DNA of 64,000 bases from Streptomyces sp. NBC_01267 (GTDB taxonomy: Bacteria; Actinomycetota; Actinomycetes; Streptomycetales; Streptomycetaceae). Position 1 is the stretch's first letter. The number at the start of each line of letters is the position of its first letter. Positions 26,693 through 50,730 of the stretch are shown one piece after another. Below the pieces are notes generated by a model that saw only the letters and a list, made by a program, of their open reading frames with translations, was not told the origin of the DNA and made no database searches. The DNA is taken from the NCBI RefSeq assembly GCF_036241575.1, contig NZ_CP108455.1, positions 1,998,501 through 2,062,500 of the forward strand. Direction: 5' to 3'. The position numbers were made by a program, and so were the translations under genes.

Positions 26693-28072
26693 TCAGCGGT
26701 CGGCATTCCGCTCCTTGACCAGCCGCCGGATCCGTTCGACCACCTCGGCGTCGGAGGGGGCTCGGCGCCCGGCCCCGACCTCGGCGGGGGCCCGGCCCGC
26801 ACCGGCCGCTCCGGGCCGGTCCTCGGTGAGGTCCGCGATCTGCGACACCGTACGGAAGTCGTACGCACGCTCCTCGTCGGCACCCGGCACGTTCTCGTAC
26901 GACTCGGGGGTGCTGAAGCCGATGGTCACGTCGATGGCCTTGGCGATCAGCCAGGTCGCGAGGAAGGAGAAGGTGGCGCAGGCCAGGATCGCGACGACCT
27001 GTTTGCCCAGCTGGTCCCACCCGCCGCCGTAGAACAGGCCCTTCCGGCCGCTGACCTGGGCGGTGGCGAAGAGGCCGACCATGAAGGTACCGGTGATGCC
27101 GCCCCAGCCGTGCACCCCGACCACGTCCAGGGTGTCGTCCACCCCGAAGCGGTACTTCAGGGTGATCGCGAAGGCACACACCACGCCGGCCACCAGCCCG
27201 GTCACCAGCGCGCCGACCGGTGAGATCTCACCGCAGGCCGGGGTGATGGCGACCATCCCGGCGACGGCGCCGGAACAGACACCGGTCATGGTCACCTGGC
27301 CGGCGCGCCACTTCTCCACCATCGGCCAGGTGATCAGCGCGCCCGCCGCGCCGAGCTGGGTGTTGATCAGGGCGGTCGCCGCCGCGCCCTGATCGGTGAG
27401 CGCCGAACCGGAGTTGAAGCCGAACCAGCCGAACCAGAGCAGTGCCAGGCCGAGCGCCACCAGCGGGACGTTGTTCGGCCTGAGCTCCAGCCTGCGGAAG
27501 TCCTTGCGGCCCCGGACCACCGTGGCCACCGCGAGACCGGCGAAGCCCGAGTTGATCTCGACGGGCAGCCCGCCCGCGAAGTCCAGTGCACCCAGGTGGT
27601 GCACCACCCAGCCCCGCGGGTCGAAGACCCAGTGCGCCAGTGGGGCGTAGACCACCAGCGTCCAGACGGCCGCGAACACCAGCCAGGCGGACATCCGGGC
27701 CCGGCCCGCGATCGAGCCGCTGATCAGGGCCACCGTGATGATGGCGAAGGCCATCTGGAAGGTGGCGAACACATAGGTGGGGATGTGACCGTGCAGGGTC
27801 TTGGGGCCGATGCCGTGCAGGAAGCCCTGCTGGGCGTCGCCGATCAGGCCGACGCCCCCGACGTCACCGGAGAAGGCCAGGCTGTAGCCCAGCGCGAACC
27901 AGACCACGCTGACCACACACAGGCAGGCGAAGCTCATCTTGAGCATCACCAGGACATGTTTGGTGCGGACCATCCCCCCGTAGAAGAAGGCGAGTCCCGG
28001 GGTCATCAGCAGCACCATCGCCGTGCTGGCGAGCAGCCAGGCGGTGTCGCCGGAATCGTAGCTGGGTGGCAT
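26693..28072 (-). CDS. amt: Ammonium channel, Amt family
   Basis: 459 residues with eleven predicted membrane segments. Diagnostic stretches are TPGLAFFYGGMVRTKHVL, AFATFQMAFAIITVAL-like segment FATFQMAFAIITVALISG, DFAGGLPVEINSGFAGLA and GAVAGMVAITPACG. A roughly 65-residue cytoplasmic tail is Glu/Arg-rich. It conducts ammonium/ammonia into the cell. It follows ureD by 49 bp on the same strand, so it looks like the last gene of the urea transporter and urease-accessory operon, which is logical because urea breakdown yields ammonium. Confidence 0.95.
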   Translation of the reverse strand: MPPSYDSGDTAWLLASTAMVLLMTPGLAFFYGGMVRTKHVLVMLKMSFACLCVVSVVWFALGYSLAFSGDVGGVGLIGDAQQGFLHGIGPKTLHGHIPTYVFATFQMAFAIITVALISGSIAGRARMSAWLVFAAVWTLVVYAPLAHWVFDPRGWVVHHLGALDFAGGLPVEINSGFAGLAVATVVRGRKDFRRLELRPNNVPLVALGLALLWFGWFGFNSGSALTDQGAAATALINTQLGAAGALITWPMVEKWRAGQVTMTGVCSGAVAGMVAITPACGEISPVGALVTGLVAGVVCAFAITLKYRFGVDDTLDVVGVHGWGGITGTFMVGLFATAQVSGRKGLFYGGGWDQLGKQVVAILACATFSFLATWLIAKAIDVTIGFSTPESYENVPGADEERAYDFRTVSQIADLTEDRPGAAGAGRAPAEVGAGRRAPSDAEVVERIRRLVKERNADR

Positions 28073-28121: not shown

Positions 28122-29117
28122 TCAGGAATGGCGCAGGTCGGGTGCGGGTGATCCGGTGAGCAGCCGGCGGGCGGCGTCCCAGGCCGCGTGCCGGGCGGCG
28201 GCCACGGCGGGCGCGTCGTCGCCCAGGATCCGGACCCAGGCTCCGCAGTCGTGCGGCAGCACGCTCACGCCGTGCAGCACGCCCCGGCCGTCGAGCGCGG
28301 TGTGCAGGGCATCGGCCACCACGGTCGCGGCGCACCGGCCGCTCACCACGAACAGCGAGCCCACACAGGCGTGTCCGGACAGCACGCCGGGACCGTTCAC
28401 ACCGTGCAGGTCGGGGCAGAACCGCATGGTGTCCAGGGCGAGGAGCCGCCCGTCGGGCCGCCGCACCTCCAGGTCGAGGCCGAGGACGTCGTAGACGTGG
28501 TGTTCACCGAGCGCGGGCCGTCCCGGGGTCACCGTCTCGCCGATCACCACGGTGGCGGTGGGGTCGGCGGTGATGACGGTGCGCTGGTAGAGCCGGGCGC
28601 CGCGGAACGGGATCAGCGGGTCCGGCAGGTACTCCAGGTACGCGTCGGGGCCCGCCCGGAGGTTGACCAGCCGGGTCGCGTAGTCGTGCTCCATCCGGTG
28701 GACCTCGGTCGCCGCCTGCGTGGTGAGGTGCGCCTCGGTCTCAGCGCCGCAGCAGACGTCGATGCGGTACCGGTCGGCCTGCACCATGCCGCCGCCGACG
28801 GACGTCATGGAGGTGAACGCCATCTTCGGCCGCAGCGGATCCACGTACAGCGGGTGCATGATCTGGAGCGGCGACTCCTCGTACCGGTGGACCAGTTCGG
28901 TCCGGCCCTGGAGCCGTTCGAAGCCCAGTTCCAGCAGGCCGATCCTTCCGGCCGAGCCTGCGGGGAGGGTGTCGGGAACGGATGCGTACCGGGCCACCTC
29001 CGCCGGGATCCGGCGCGGGGTGTGGTGCGCGGCGGAGAGGCGCGGCACCTGCCGGCCCGTCGCGGACCCCGGGCGGGTCCCGCCGGAGGTCTCGGGTTCC
29101 TGCGTGACCAGGGCCAT
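28122..29117 (-). CDS. ureD: Urease accessory protein UreD (UreH)
   Basis: 331 residues. UreD binds apo-urease and passes nickel from UreG/UreF to the active site. The family pattern is clear: LGFERLQGRTELVHRYEESPLQIMHPLY, the metal-route region VGGGMVQADRYRIDVCCGAETEAHLTTQAATEV, and YLPDPLIPFRGARLYQRTVI. An N-terminal extension of about 30 residues is less conserved. It is one base downstream of ureG. Its proper substrate, the urease ABC complex, is missing from the locus. Confidence 0.93.
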   Translation of the reverse strand: MALVTQEPETSGGTRPGSATGRQVPRLSAAHHTPRRIPAEVARYASVPDTLPAGSAGRIGLLELGFERLQGRTELVHRYEESPLQIMHPLYVDPLRPKMAFTSMTSVGGGMVQADRYRIDVCCGAETEAHLTTQAATEVHRMEHDYATRLVNLRAGPDAYLEYLPDPLIPFRGARLYQRTVITADPTATVVIGETVTPGRPALGEHHVYDVLGLDLEVRRPDGRLLALDTMRFCPDLHGVNGPGVLSGHACVGSLFVVSGRCAATVVADALHTALDGRGVLHGVSVLPHDCGAWVRILGDDAPAVAAARHAAWDAARRLLTGSPAPDLRHS

Positions 29118-29118
29118 C

Positions 29119-29739
29119 TCAGACCAGCACCTTGCGCCGTGACTCGATGAAGTCCAGTACGTCCGCCACGCCCTGCCCGGTCAGGCAGTCGGTGAGGATC
29201 ACCGGCAGGCCGTCCCGGACCCGGATCGCGTCGCCCTCCATGACGGCGAGGTCGGTCCGCACGTACTGCGCGATGTCGATCTTGTTGATCACCAGCAGGT
29301 CGGAGGTGGTGATGCCGGGGCCGCGCTTGCGGGGCATCTTCTCGCCCTCGGCCGTGTCCAGTACGAACATGAACATGTCCACCAGCGCCGGACTGAACGT
29401 CAGCGTCAGATTGTCGCCGCCGCTCTCGAAGAGCAGCGTGTCCACGTCCGGGAAGCGTTCGAGCAGTTCGGCTCCCGCGGCCAGATTCATCGTCGGGTCG
29501 TCGCGCACCGCCGTGTGCGGGCAGGCACCCGTCTCGACGCCGACCACCCGCTCGGGGTCGAGCACCCCCTCCAGCGTGCGGCGGACATGGATCGCGTCCT
29601 CCTGCGTGTAGATGTCGTTGGTGACCACCGCCGGAGTGCGACCGCGCTCGACGAGCAGCGGCACGAGGGCCTCGATCAGCGCGGTCTTCCCCGAGCCGAC
29701 CGGTCCCGCGATGCCCACCCTCAGCACCTTGTCGTCCAT
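29119..29739 (-). CDS. ureG: Urease accessory GTPase UreG
   Basis: 206 residues. UreG is a SIMIBI-class GTPase that carries nickel and drives its insertion. It shows the P-loop GIAGPVGSGKTALIEAL, VTNDIYTQEDA, the nickel-binding Cys-Pro-His in VETGACPHTAVRDDPTMN, and the guanine-specificity motif LLVINKIDIA. All key residues are intact. A 135-bp spacer containing five 15-bp repeats and a long hairpin separates it from ureF, which is unusual for this normally compact cluster. Confidence 0.96.
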   Translation of the reverse strand: MDDKVLRVGIAGPVGSGKTALIEALVPLLVERGRTPAVVTNDIYTQEDAIHVRRTLEGVLDPERVVGVETGACPHTAVRDDPTMNLAAGAELLERFPDVDTLLFESGGDNLTLTFSPALVDMFMFVLDTAEGEKMPRKRGPGITTSDLLVINKIDIAQYVRTDLAVMEGDAIRVRDGLPVILTDCLTGQGVADVLDFIESRRKVLV

Positions 29740-29774: not shown

Positions 29775-29849
29775 CTGCGGGTACGGGTTCTGCGGGTACG
29801 GGTTCCGTGGTTACGCTCTGTGGTTACGGGCTGTGTCGTTACGGGCTGT
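29775..29849 (-). repeat. 15-bp tandem repeat x5 between ureF and ureG
   Basis: Five 15-bp units (29775, 29790, 29805, 29820, 29835) such as CTGCGGGTACGGGTT and GTGGTTACGGGCTGT; the shared core is (T/G)ACGGG. The array is non-coding and directly joins the hairpin at 29845-29872. Confidence 0.8.
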
Positions 29850-29874: not shown

Positions 29875-30600
29875 TCAGTTGGCGAACAGGCGTGCGTCGG
29901 AACGCTCATGGCGCCCCGACAGCGCGTCGGTGGTGGGAATGCAGCCACCCAGGTCGGCGAGTTCACGGCGGACGGCCGCCGCCGTCACCTCCTCGACCAC
30001 CGGGGCGGCCTCCCGCAGCAGTACCTGCGCCTTGCGGTGATCGGTGAGCCGCAGCCGCAGCGCCGCCCCGGCGAAGGCGGCACAGAAGGCGAACAGGTCC
30101 GTGGCCACCGCCTGTTGGCGGGGTACGCCCATACCGGCCTGGATCACCGCGGCGACCACGGCCTGGTTGCCGGGCGCCTCGCGGCGGGCCACCACGGCCG
30201 CGTACTCCTCGACGGCCTCGCTGGGAAACACCTGCCGGGCCAGGTCGAGCATCTGACGGCCGGTCCGGGTGGCCGCCACCCGGATCTCCCGGCTGAGCTT
30301 CGTGGCGTACAGCCGCTCGTCGACCTCGGCCACCTGCCCCCAGGACCGGTGCACCGCCGCGGTGTGCGCCAGGGCGAGCGCCGTGGCGTCGGACGGGCCG
30401 ATGCCGTGGTGCAGCAGGTCGGACAACAGCGGGGCCAGACCCTCGGGGTCGACCATGCCCGCCTGGGCGAACCCCTCCAGCCCGTGCGAGAGCGTGTAGA
30501 AGCCGCTGGGGAACGCCGAGTCGGTGAGCTGGAGACTGACCAGGAGCGAACTCAGCAGGGTGTTCGGCGGCGCGCTGTCGAGTATCACCGGGGCCGTCAT
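29875..30600 (-). CDS. ureF: Urease accessory protein UreF
   Basis: 241 residues. UreF gates GTP hydrolysis by UreG in the urease activation complex. The all-helical pattern is preserved: LLVSLQLTDSAFPSGFYTLSHGLEGF near the N-terminus, and VEDERL-like EVDERLYATKLSREIRVA and RTGRQML in the middle. Its ATG overlaps the stop of the 30-aa ureB/ureC remnant upstream (ATGA), so its translation is coupled to that remnant. The hairpin at 29845-29872 follows. Confidence 0.92.
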   Translation of the reverse strand: MTAPVILDSAPPNTLLSSLLVSLQLTDSAFPSGFYTLSHGLEGFAQAGMVDPEGLAPLLSDLLHHGIGPSDATALALAHTAAVHRSWGQVAEVDERLYATKLSREIRVAATRTGRQMLDLARQVFPSEAVEEYAAVVARREAPGNQAVVAAVIQAGMGVPRQQAVATDLFAFCAAFAGAALRLRLTDHRKAQVLLREAAPVVEEVTAAAVRRELADLGGCIPTTDALSGRHERSDARLFAN

Positions 30601-30689
30601 CGGACGAGGAAGAACAGCTGGTCGAGGGGCAGTCCGGCGTTGATCTCGACGGGATCGTCGCCGTACAGATATGTCGGCTGGCCTGCCAT
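30597..30689 (-). pseudogene. ureB-start/ureC-end fusion remnant (30 codons)
   Basis: The 30-codon frame begins MAGQPTYLYGDDPVEINAGLP, which resembles the N-terminus of urease beta subunits (a Tyr, an acidic turn, then INAGRP-like residues). It ends LPLDQLFFLVR, which resembles the last residues of urease alpha (LPMAQRYFLF-type). The simplest reading is a deletion from early ureB to the end of ureC, in frame. ACGAGGC precedes the ATG, and the stop overlaps the ureF start, as a normal ureC stop would. It cannot encode a working subunit. The match is from memory of the family; alignment is needed. Confidence 0.65.
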
Positions 30690-30732
30690 GGGTGCCTCGT
30701 TTCAGCAGCGGTGCGTCAGGGGGCTGGGGCGA

Positions 30733-31596
30733 TCAGGGGTGAAGGACGGCGGTGTGCAAGGGCCGGTCCGTGACGTGCGGGTGTGGATGTGCGTGCTCGT
30801 GGTCGAGGGCATGGTTGTGGTCGTCGTGATCGTCGTCGTGGCTGTGTGTGTGGCCGTGGTGCTGGGCCGACCCGGCGGCGATCCCGTCGTCGTGGGCCGC
30901 GAGCTTCCGCAGCGCCGCGCCGGTCCTGGTGGCGAGTACGGCCTCGACCGCAGCCCTCCCGAGCAGTGGGCCACCGCACAACACCTCGGTCTGGTGCGGG
31001 AGTTCCGGCAGGTGCGACAGGTCGGGCGGTCCCGGTGGCCCCGGCTCCACGAAGGATGCGGGAAGCACCCGGACCCGGGCGGCGCCGAGCCTGCGGCAGC
31101 GGTCGATGCCCTCGGCGGGTGAGGGGTCGCCGCCCGCCAGGGCGACCTCGACCAGCCCGTGCCGCCCGTACTGGCGTACCAGCCGGGCGACCCGGAACAG
31201 TTCGGCGTCCGCGTCCGGGTCCGCCGCGGGCGCCACGATCAGCAGGGCCGGTTCGGCCTCGGCCGGCGGGCTGTGTCCGGCCGCCGCGCGGAGCCAGCCG
31301 ATCAGGTGTTCCGTCGAGCCGAAGGGCTCGGTGAGCGCGATCCGGCCCGGGTGTTCGGCGGCGGGCCGGCGCAGCGTGCGCGCGGTGTCCGCGACGAGTT
31401 CGGGGTCGCGGCCGAGGGTCATCGGGACCACGCAGACCGGCCCGGGACCGGCCCGCAGCGCGCGGCCCACTGCGGCCTGGAGTTCCCGCCCCGGTGCGAC
31501 GGGAACGACGCCGCTGCCGGCCAGTACGCCGTCGAGGGCGCGGCCGAAGGCGGCCTCGTGGCCGCAGACCGCGATGACGGTGGGGAGCGCGGTCAC
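30733..31596 (-). CDS. CbiX/SirB-like metal chelatase or nickel chaperone with His-rich tail
   Basis: 287 residues. The body resembles the CbiX/sirohydrochlorin-chelatase fold: VIAVCGHEAAFGRALDGVL, CVVPMTLGRDPELVADTART, RIALTEPFGSTEHLIGWL, and a second half VARLVRQYGRHGLVEVALAGGDPSPAEGI. The tail (about 247-275) is extremely His/Asp-rich (HHGHTHSHDDDHDDHNH) and could hold several nickel or cobalt ions. The GTG start lies two bases after the stop of the ureA remnant, so translation is probably coupled. Its place inside a urease accessory operon favours nickel delivery; a tetrapyrrole role is the alternative. Confidence 0.72.
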   Translation of the reverse strand: MTALPTVIAVCGHEAAFGRALDGVLAGSGVVPVAPGRELQAAVGRALRAGPGPVCVVPMTLGRDPELVADTARTLRRPAAEHPGRIALTEPFGSTEHLIGWLRAAAGHSPPAEAEPALLIVAPAADPDADAELFRVARLVRQYGRHGLVEVALAGGDPSPAEGIDRCRRLGAARVRVLPASFVEPGPPGPPDLSHLPELPHQTEVLCGGPLLGRAAVEAVLATRTGAALRKLAAHDDGIAAGSAQHHGHTHSHDDDHDDHNHALDHEHAHPHPHVTDRPLHTAVLHP

Positions 31597-31598
31597 GG

Positions 31599-31685
31599 TC
31601 AGCCGCCGATCGGGGCGTGGCAGGAGACCAGGTCCGCGACGACGTGGACGAGCGGTTTGTCGATCTCACGGGGGGTCAGGTTCAT
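31599..31685 (-). pseudogene. ureA remnant: first and last codons only (28 codons)
   Basis: The 28-codon frame starts MNLTPREIDKPLVHVVADL, matching the start of urease gamma subunits (M-LTPRE-DKLL), and ends LVSCHAPIGG, matching their end (KLVTVHNPI-type). About 70 internal codons are missing, in frame. A perfect AAGGAGG lies nine bases before the ATG, and the stop is two bases before the next gene's GTG, so the shortened frame may survive as a translation leader for the CbiX-like gene. It cannot form a urease subunit. Confidence 0.78.
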
Positions 31686-31724: not shown

Positions 31725-32684
31725 TCAGGCACGCCGCAACCGGGTCAGGCCGGGTACGGCGAGCAGCAGGAGCCAGGTGGTGAGGATGAACGGCCAGGTG
31801 AAGGTGTGGCCGCCGAACGGTTTGAAGAACGAGGTGAGGGAGGCCGTGAGGGCGCAGCTCAGCACGGCCCCGAACAGGGCGTAGCCGGTCTCCCAGGTGC
31901 CGTGTGCGAGGAAGGTGACCCCCAGCGCGATGGCGACGAGCACCGCGTTGTAGCCGTAGATGCCGTTGGCGATCACCGCTGCGGGGGCGCCGAACGCCCA
32001 GGCGACGACGATCCCGAGCACACTGCCCGCCACCGCGAACAGCCCCACGCGCACGCCCGCGAGGAAGAGTCCGGCGAGGATCAGCAGCCCGGAGTACCAG
32101 GTGTTGAGCAGGAAGATCTCGGCGACGTTGTTGAAGAAGGCGTGCCAGAGATCGTTCCAGGACAGCGCCCGGTCGCCGGTGGTGACGGTGGGCAGGGCCG
32201 CGGGGCTGCCCGTGTGCCAGAGCCGCGCGAAGGACGGCGCCCCGACGACCATGACGCCCGAGACGACGCAGAACGGAGCGGTCAGGCCGGTGAGCCCCCA
32301 GGTGGAGAACACGGTGGCCAGCGCGGCGGAGACCAGGGTGGCGGCTGCGGCGCCGAAGAGGGCCAGCAGCCAGGTCGAGAGGTGCATGCCGAGGAAGACC
32401 AGTACGGCGACTCCGGTGAGGCACCCGTTGAATCCGTGCAGCCCCTGGTGGATCGCGGTGCGGTCGGCGCCGAGCAGATAGGCGGTGACCGTGGCGACCA
32501 CGGTACCGAACAGTCCGAAGACCCCGGCCTGCCAGCTGTACGCGAAGAGCCCGGCCAGGATGAGCGCCCCGGTCAGCAGGTTGGTCTGCAGGACCACTTG
32601 GGCGAACCCGCGCAGCCCGGTCTCGGCCAGAGCCTGCGGAAGCTCGTCACTCGGATGGCGACCGTGTATTTCGGTGGTAGGCAC
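31725..32684 (-). CDS. Urea transporter (UT family)
   Basis: 319 residues with about ten membrane segments in two homologous halves. Each half carries the signature: IHQGLHGFNGCLTGVAVLVFLG in the first and IANGIYGYNAVLVAIALGVTFL in the second, with FNNVAEIFLLNTWYSGLLIL before the second pore half. These fit the SLC14/Yut-type urea channel family. It is the first gene of the minus-strand operon leading to the urease remnants and accessory genes. The GTG start at 32684 is near a 14-bp palindrome at 32712-32725. Confidence 0.93.
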   Translation of the reverse strand: MPTTEIHGRHPSDELPQALAETGLRGFAQVVLQTNLLTGALILAGLFAYSWQAGVFGLFGTVVATVTAYLLGADRTAIHQGLHGFNGCLTGVAVLVFLGMHLSTWLLALFGAAAATLVSAALATVFSTWGLTGLTAPFCVVSGVMVVGAPSFARLWHTGSPAALPTVTTGDRALSWNDLWHAFFNNVAEIFLLNTWYSGLLILAGLFLAGVRVGLFAVAGSVLGIVVAWAFGAPAAVIANGIYGYNAVLVAIALGVTFLAHGTWETGYALFGAVLSCALTASLTSFFKPFGGHTFTWPFILTTWLLLLAVPGLTRLRRA

Positions 32685-32808: not shown

Positions 32809-33183
32809 TCAGCCGAACAGCGCCGTGGCGACGGCGGAGCCGAGAGCGGCTGCGCCGAGACCGGCCAGTACGGTGACGACGAGGTTCGTCACGGCCAGTG
32901 TCCGGGGGCGGCTCGCGGCCAGGGCGAGTGTCTCGTAGGAGAAGGTCGAGTAGGTACTCAGAGCGCCGCACAGGCCCGTCCCGAGCAGCAGTTGGGTGTC
33001 GTGCGAGGCGTGGCCGGACAGTACGGCTCCGGTGACGACGCCCAGGACGAGCGCGGCGGCCATGTTCGCGGTGAAGGTGCCCCAGGGAAACACCCCGTGG
33101 TAGCGGGTGTGGACCCAGCGGTCGGTGAGGTAGCGCAGCATCGCGCCGACGCAGGCGCCGACGGCCACCAGCAGCCAGGTCAC
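32809..33183 (-). CDS. crcB2: Fluoride channel subunit FluC (CrcB), downstream copy
   Basis: 124 residues with four membrane segments. FluC proteins form dual-topology dimers that export fluoride. The pore residues are present: the Asn in FTANMAAALVLG and the phenylalanine/threonine track GLCGALSTYSTFSYETL. Its ATG overlaps the stop of the DUF190 gene. Two different FluC genes in one operon, as here, usually mean a heterodimer with the two chains inserted in opposite orientation. Confidence 0.95.
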   Translation of the reverse strand: MTWLLVAVGACVGAMLRYLTDRWVHTRYHGVFPWGTFTANMAAALVLGVVTGAVLSGHASHDTQLLLGTGLCGALSTYSTFSYETLALAASRPRTLAVTNLVVTVLAGLGAAALGSAVATALFG

Positions 33184-33555: not shown

Positions 33556-34041
33556 TCATCGGTGCCGTCCGGTCAGGGCTCGACGGGTGAGTCCGGTGGC
33601 CACCTGGACCGCCGCCATCGCGGCCACCGGGGTCACCAGGCCATAGACCAGGCCGGTCACGACGTGGCCGTCGGTGAGCAGCAGGTGGATGCCCACCTCG
33701 TAGGTGGAGAAGGTGGTGAATCCGCCGAGGATGCCGGTGCCGATGAAGGGACCGGCCAGCCGGTGCACCCGGCGCAACTCGCTGACGACCACCTTCAGTA
33801 CGCCCATCAGCGCGCAGCCGACCACGTTGATGACGAGCGTGGTGGTGGGGAAGGTACCGGCGGTGTGCGGCCAGACCAGATTCGCGCCGTGCCGGAGGAA
33901 GGCACCCAGCACACCGCCGAGACCGACGGACAGGAGGACGTCCCGGGGGCCGAGGGCGTGCCTGAGGTCCGCCGGGGCCGTGCTCCGGGTGCGGCCGGCC
34001 GCCCCGGGGGTGGACGCTGCCGCACCGGTGGGAGGAGCCAT
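33556..34041 (-). CDS. crcB1: Fluoride channel subunit FluC (CrcB), upstream copy
   Basis: 161 residues from the ATG at 34041 (MAPPTGAAAST). An Ala/Thr/Gly-rich cytoplasmic extension of about 30 residues precedes four membrane segments. The FluC motifs are LVINVVGCALMG and GTGILGGFTTFSTYEVG. First gene of the crcB1-DUF190-crcB2 unit. No recognisable crcB-motif fluoride riboswitch was seen in the 165 bp upstream. Confidence 0.94.
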   Translation of the reverse strand: MAPPTGAAASTPGAAGRTRSTAPADLRHALGPRDVLLSVGLGGVLGAFLRHGANLVWPHTAGTFPTTTLVINVVGCALMGVLKVVVSELRRVHRLAGPFIGTGILGGFTTFSTYEVGIHLLLTDGHVVTGLVYGLVTPVAAMAAVQVATGLTRRALTGRHR

Positions 34042-34146
34042 CGTGTTCCGATCGTGGTCAGGGGGCCGTGGCCGCCCGCACGTGCCGCGGCCGTGGGCCG
34101 CGGGTCTCCTCTCGGAACCTAGACGCTGGTACGGAGGCCGGCCACC

Positions 34147-34171
34147 GGTGCGGGTGCGGCCCGCCCGCACC
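34147..34171 (-). terminator. GC-rich inverted repeat after the first HtaA gene
   Basis: GGTGCGGG (34147-34154) and CCCGCACC (34164-34171) can pair around nine bases, about 35 bp past the stop of the minus-strand HtaA gene. A modest terminator candidate in a generally repetitive GC-rich stretch. Confidence 0.4.
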
Positions 34172-34206
34172 GTGCCCGCCCGCACCGCGCCGGAGGGCCG
34201 GTCGTG

Positions 34207-50580: not shown

Positions 50581-50730
50581 TTACGCAGTGAGGGAAGGTT
50601 TTTTCAGTTCTCCGGAGGCACTCCGCACCTGCTCGGGAGGGGTTCCGGAGGGGTGACGGAAGAGCAGCGAGAGAACATGTCCGGTGCCCCAGTACGCGAG
50701 CAGGACGACCCGCAGGAACAGCCGGCTCAC
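50581..50730 (-). CDS. 49-residue membrane protein in the ketosynthase operon
   Basis: The frame opens with a GTG that overlaps the acyl-CoA dehydrogenase stop in a GTGA, and ends at the TAA at 50581. It encodes 49 residues: one hydrophobic helix (RLFLRVVLLAYWGTGHVLSL, about 3-22) followed by a short polar tail (FRHPSGTPPEQVRSASGELK). The exact four-base overlap and protein-like hydrophobic profile argue for a real gene. It may anchor the biosynthetic enzymes to the membrane; no homologue can be named. Confidence 0.65.
   Translation of the reverse strand: MSRLFLRVVLLAYWGTGHVLSLLFRHPSGTPPEQVRSASGELKKPSLTA

Follow-up and report, generated by a model that had tools for sequence, protein, structure and literature searches.

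We analysed a window of 64,000 nucleotides from Streptomyces sp. NBC_01267 and found a urease accessory operon in which the structural genes survive as two short in-frame stubs, one made of the start and end of ureA and the other of the start of ureB and the end of ureC. Comparison with a second genome of the species shows that the deletions that formed the stubs are natural and older than the split of the two sequenced strains. Judging from the sequence comparisons reported here, we consider it rather probable that this is an orphan operon for urea transport and urease maturation that acts in trans, and that its stubs would serve as coupling leaders.

Layout of the operon and its two stubs

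The operon is encoded on the minus strand in the order UT, 28-codon frame, CbiX-like gene, 30-codon frame, ureF, ureG, ureD and amt. Its first gene, the urea transporter gene UT (31725..32684), matches Pfam PF03253 with 293.9 bits, and the ammonium transporter gene amt (26693..28072), which closes the conserved gene order, is recognized by both Pfam and NCBIfam. The accessory set of UreF (29875..30600; Pfam, 115.1 bits), UreG (29119..29739; NCBIfam TIGR00101 above cut-off and a Pfam cobW/UreG match) and UreD (28122..29117; Pfam, 164.3 bits) matches its family profiles in open frames. The CbiX-like gene (30733..31596) is also open, and its Pfam CbiX match is weak with 24.9 bits (cut-off 22). 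These matches and open frames agree with the sequence-only reading, which had described the six genes as intact.

The CbiX-like protein ends in a His-rich tail with 15 His among the last 50 residues, a count that ranges from 2 to 19 in 42 relatives. Given this tail and the position of its gene between ureA and ureB, the protein may serve to store or deliver nickel. Two CrcB fluoride-exporter genes are located just upstream of the operon (32809-33183 and 33556-34185), and CrcB matches were also seen beside UT in two other loci, L040 and L042. A strict pattern of what we take to be the GlnR consensus revealed no GlnR box near UT; the pattern matched once in the window, at 50642, against a chance expectation of 0.96.

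The first stub (31599..31685, 28 codons, minus strand) joins UreA codons 1-19 to the last 9 codons in frame. In alignments with intact clusters, residues 1-19 of its product match the UreA start and residues 19-27 or 28 the UreA end, and the Pfam urease gamma profile gave a sub-threshold match of 14.4 bits (cut-off 23.9) over profile positions 1-20. At the deletion junction (31628..31629), 73 codons, or 219 bp, are missing relative to the 101-codon genes of relatives. The second stub (30597..30689, 30 codons, minus strand), for which no Pfam match was found, fuses UreB codons 1-19 to the last codons of UreC; residues 1-19 align to the UreB start and residues 20-28 to the UreC end of intact clusters. 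Its junction (30632..30633) lacks approximately 2.19 kb compared with the closest related locus, L132, and the ureB start and ureC stop lie about 2.1-2.3 kb apart in the five intact loci that were measured. Both frames had been proposed, from the letters alone, to be start-plus-end remnants of urease subunits, and the alignments confirm this, with 73 of 101 codons lost in frame from ureA and about 2.2 kb lost between the UreB start and the UreC end. An intact alpha subunit is absent from the locus, where only the last ureC codons are left and none of the whole-genome PF00449 matches falls within the window. Likewise, an intact gamma subunit is absent, with 28 of 101 codons left and none of the whole-genome PF00547 matches in the window.

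Comparison of the deletion endpoints with intact clusters for short direct repeats yielded only a few shared letters. The two sides of the UreA joint have CT in common when compared with L132, and CTGG when L079 or L087 is the reference, and the UreB-UreC joint, where the missing stretch runs from ureB codon 19 to the last codons of ureC, shows about 1 nt common to both sides in L132. Since the joints share so little when compared with present-day relatives, repeat-mediated deletion is unsupported, and long direct repeats were discarded as a cause. The second stub ends in FLVR-stop, one codon more than the relatives, which mostly end in FLA-stop or FLV-stop. As ureB and ureC occupy different frames in 40 of 42 relatives, a fusion of the two would not be in frame by default. 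The chance of both deletions being in frame is 1 in 9.

The predicted Shine-Dalgarno pairing to the 16S tail amounts to -11.2 kcal/mol for the UreA stub and -7.8 kcal/mol for the UreB/UreC stub. For ureF the energy is +0.3 against a random background median of -3.9, so that no such site is predicted, and the CbiX-like gene, with -5.3, has a weak one that ranks between the stubs and ureF. The good ribosome-binding sites that had been ascribed to the stubs thus hold for both of them. UreF, behind the second stub, does not have one and rests on an ATGA (30597..30600) that combines this stub's stop with the ureF start, with no Shine-Dalgarno sequence upstream. The GTG of the CbiX-like gene begins 2 nt after the UreA-stub stop. 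Among relatives, the nearest candidate cbiX start is located -4 to +5 nt from the ureA stop in 45 of 46, and in 22 of 42 the nearest candidate ureF start has a 4-nt overlap with the ureC stop. If a leader ORF is defined by a stop that overlaps a downstream start without its own ribosome-binding site, the second stub qualifies as a leader for UreF, and the CbiX-like gene is a weaker case. Because ureF combines the lack of a Shine-Dalgarno sequence with the ATGA overlap, an in-frame stub is probably needed for its translation, and a deletion that shifted the frame would presumably impair the expression of ureF.

Intact relatives and a second genome of the species

The loci of relatives were gathered by a scan with the CbiX-like protein, which gave six loci, and then by genome searches. 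CbiX-like matches at E <= 1e-30 were obtained in 28 of 392 genus genomes. CbiX-like and UreA matches occur together in 51 fetched loci, repeats included, all of which have a full UreA and 46 a full UreC, while the other five run off their contigs. The sequence-only reading depended on intact clusters existing somewhere in the lineage, and the full UreA in all 51 attests to them. After removal of repeats, we retained 46 other distinct loci, no two of them sharing identical UreA DNA; this panel includes the second cbiX-type cluster of the window's own genome. A full UreA of 101 codons is present in 46/46 and a full UreC of 574 codons in all 42 that were reached, the remaining four running off their contigs.

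In the relatives that carry urease, the CbiX-like gene sits between ureA and ureB. The window keeps the gene order and orientation of this cluster type, UT-ureA-cbiX-ureBC-ureFGD-amt. It is like the UT-ureA-cbiX-ureB-ureC-ureF-ureG-ureD(-amt) clusters of Streptomyces, Kitasatospora and Streptacidiphilus in order, in start/stop spacings and in its homologous accessory genes, and differs in having stubs where these have full ureA and ureC. The cluster ends vary: among the 46 full-UreC loci (repeats included), the fetched stretch has no UT match in 6 and no amt match in 12. The closest locus, L132 (genome G605), compares with the window at 89% for UreG, 77% for Amt, 71% for UreF and 67% for UreD and has intact UreA, UreB and UreC; this nearest intact cluster apparently belongs to Streptacidiphilus. 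In a search with the CbiX-like protein, the best 120 of 388 matches beyond the species' own cluster (99%) all lie at <=61%. CbiX-like homologues at 42-47% were also observed in L102-L105 and L107-L116 (genus g3), with no urease gene found in the fetched stretch.

A genome marked as conspecific, G397, carries the entire region (L077), and both of its stubs are letter-for-letter identical to those of the window. The main alignment of 15.8 kb contains 36 substitutions and 5 gap openings, all outside the stubs. UreF, UreG and UreD are free of substitutions; UT has 2, both silent (0 amino-acid differences), the CbiX-like gene 5 (2 amino-acid changes) and Amt 7 (3 changes). All kept frames are open in both copies. 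Between ureG and ureF, 15 bp of the window (29791-29805) are missing in G397, in a stretch that looks repetitive. The CbiX-like protein cluster has 5 member sequences, and because its representative differs from the window protein, a further CbiX-like allele exists.

To describe the conservation of the kept genes, we took the positions that are identical in all other loci and scored the window for changes. It is changed at 2 of 49 such invariant positions in UT, 1 of 46 in the CbiX-like protein, 2 of 73 in UreF, 0 of 102 in UreG, 5 of 72 in UreD and 2 of 159 in Amt. For UreD the window is the most changed among 42 loci. For UT and UreF it ranks second, with means of 0.31 and 0.40 in the other loci and 6 changes in each protein in the intact sister L132. 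The UreA stub is changed at 3 of 16 invariant positions (L11P, Y14H, D24A) and the UreB/UreC stub at 0 of 10. Compared with the six kept genes together, where 489 of 501 positions held and 12 changed, the difference is significant for the UreA stub (Fisher p=0.009) and weaker for both stubs pooled (3/26, p=0.033). Since the UreA stub has changed while the kept genes are conserved, its deletion is probably not brand new.

In relative-rate comparisons with L132, the window is slower in UT with three of four outgroups (p<0.05), slower in UreG with one of five and faster in UreD with two of five. In a panel without L132, the window is changed at 6/64 positions in UT, 8/90 in UreF and 9/84 in UreD, each the highest value. 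On a fixed tree without L132, it branches deeply and alone, and its tip is the longest for five of six genes, Amt included, so that depth, not acceleration of a single gene, is the simplest cause. The relaxation of UT and UreF that this panel suggested was largely removed once the sister L132 was added, and the UreD signal stayed. Overall, no kept gene has a broken frame; UreG, the CbiX-like gene and Amt are unrelaxed, UT and UreF lie slightly above the other loci but below L132, and UreD is the most changed.

Other ureases of the genome and orphan accessory sets

Whole-genome profile searches resulted in four strong UreC matches and a weak one of 23.8 bits (PF00449), and in four full UreA genes and one weak match (PF00547). 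The search for a second ureABC was thus successful, with UreA and UreC at four other loci of the same genome. At C1:5.43 Mb (L037, G000:C1:5427000-5445000) the order is ureA-cbiX-ureB-ureC-ureF-ureG-ureD, with no UT or amt match in 18 kb. The locus at C1:7.68 Mb reads UT-ureABC-ureFGD, that at C1:2.34 Mb has ureABC together with ureF, ureG and a UreD match, and that at C1:5.74 Mb has a fused ureAB and ureC, with no accessory match in 16 kb. Three of these loci have a UreD match of their own. In G397 we likewise found four strong UreC matches, with scores close to those in the window's genome, and the weak one.

Across the 46 full-UreC loci (repeats included), UT and amt are both unmatched in the fetched stretches only at C1:5.43 Mb and in L078, the conspecific counterpart of that cluster. 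Having neither UT nor amt, L037 and L078 present a mirror image of the window's loss. With strict patterns of what we take to be the urease motifs, 3 of 6 went unmatched in the UreC encoded at 2.34 Mb and 4 of 6 in that at 5.74 Mb. These misses do not represent lost ligands, as the alignment shows that the presumed metal-ligand positions are kept in all four UreC proteins. The genome has three UT genes and two Amt genes in total, the third urea transporter gene (G000:C1:3248274-3249155) lying approximately 12 kb from the weak UreC-profile match at 3261396.

A UreD search in 121 genus genomes gave 137 matches in 105 of them. Among the matches listed, 121 of 137 have UreC within 8 kb; the 16 with no listed UreC at <=8 kb are those of the window, G131, G046, G014 and 12 others, and both G046 and G014 are split assemblies with listed UreC on other contigs. 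Judged by the UreC matches listed, the 121 genomes hold at least one other clear orphan UreD set, in G131, which is another species. Within the 18 kb of this locus (L146, G131:C1:6598000-6616000), UT, ureA, cbiX, ureB and ureC are all unmatched; the ureF match does not begin before residue 87, ureG is without an internal piece, and ureD and amt are left. It is like the window in that the structural genes are gone and UreD and Amt are left. Unlike the window, which keeps all of these in open frames, it has lost UT, cbiX and parts of ureF and ureG. By its gene content L146 shows advanced decay of this cluster type, a state that the window does not resemble.

Among known systems, the silent urease of Yersinia pestis has a broken accessory gene and its structural genes remain. 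There, too, an operon is inactivated by the loss of one part, and the window is the opposite case, with the structural genes lost. Published accounts describe genomes with several urease loci, some of them lacking part of the set, and the window's genome is alike in this. They also describe an ure(AB)C type with structural genes and no accessory genes, of which the window is the reverse. In the portions of the literature that were available, we found no report of ureABC stubs inside a kept accessory operon.

Origin and possible role of the stub-bearing operon

The relatives and the second strain show that the operon was once a complete UT-ureA-cbiX-ureB-ureC-ureF-ureG-ureD-amt operon and lost its catalytic genes through two separate internal in-frame deletions before both strains parted. 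With predicted ribosome-binding sites of their own, and with stops that lie 2 nt ahead of the cbiX start or overlap the ureF start, the stubs may act as short translated leaders that pass ribosomes to cbiX and ureF. The kept genes would serve the uptake of urea, the transport of ammonium and, in trans, the nickel loading of the paralogous ureases left in the same cell, and the likeliest client would be the cbiX-type cluster at C1:5.43 Mb, with no UT or amt in its fetched stretch. We propose only tentatively that the operon might be a dedicated unit for import and maturation in trans that shares labour with this cluster, with the translation of the stubs, not their sequence, being selected. The points that count against trans service with the stubs as leaders are the 1-in-9 chance, the unchanged second stub with the pooled p=0.033, the fast UreD, the second rank of UT and UreF, the high counts and long tips in the panel without L132 and the weak Shine-Dalgarno site that the CbiX-like gene has of its own. 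In addition, trans service is not needed, because UreD matches are also present at three of the other urease loci.

The locus could also be at an early stage of neutral decay, as a fifth urease locus that is redundant and dying, with deletions that are in frame by luck and other genes that are not yet broken. The four other urease loci do make it redundant, both deletions would be in frame by chance once in nine cases, UreD has changed somewhat fast, the window is second among the loci in changes at invariant positions of UT and UreF, and L146 shows such a cluster in advanced decay in another species. However, UreG (0/102), the CbiX-like protein (1/46) and UreF (2/73) have changed little compared with the UreA stub (3/16), the intact sister L132 exceeds the window in both UT and UreF (6 changes each), and every kept frame is open in the window and in the conspecific copy. 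We therefore regard neutral decay as rather doubtful. A switch of UreF, UreG, UreD and the CbiX-like protein to some other nickel enzyme in place of urease, as had been suggested, would fit a full maturation set without its own target and a UreD that is faster than its sister with two of five outgroups. Yet four ureases remain, one of them in a stretch of 16 kb that yielded no accessory gene, and UT and Amt are kept alongside and point to urea, which makes such a switch quite improbable.

The start-plus-end, in-frame shape of the stubs resembles a bench deletion, and the sequence-only reading had weighed a laboratory-made strain or an assembly error against selection for downstream expression. 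Both artefacts are extremely unlikely and were set aside, because both stubs are unchanged in a second genome that can be told apart by 36 substitutions and 5 gap openings in the 15.8 kb alignment. The UreA stub has, moreover, diverged at positions that are invariant in 46 relatives. What stands of the earlier account is that the two clean deletions are natural, and selection for downstream expression appears likely.

As an orphan operon with stubs as coupling leaders, the locus would be a natural example of an operon from which two catalytic blocks were cut while the signals for the downstream frames were kept. It would allow a direct test of how strongly translational coupling limits the loss of genes from operons. 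The locus would also represent a natural separation of urease maturation from urease, and may be useful for studying the interchangeability of UreD, UreF and UreG among coexisting ureases.
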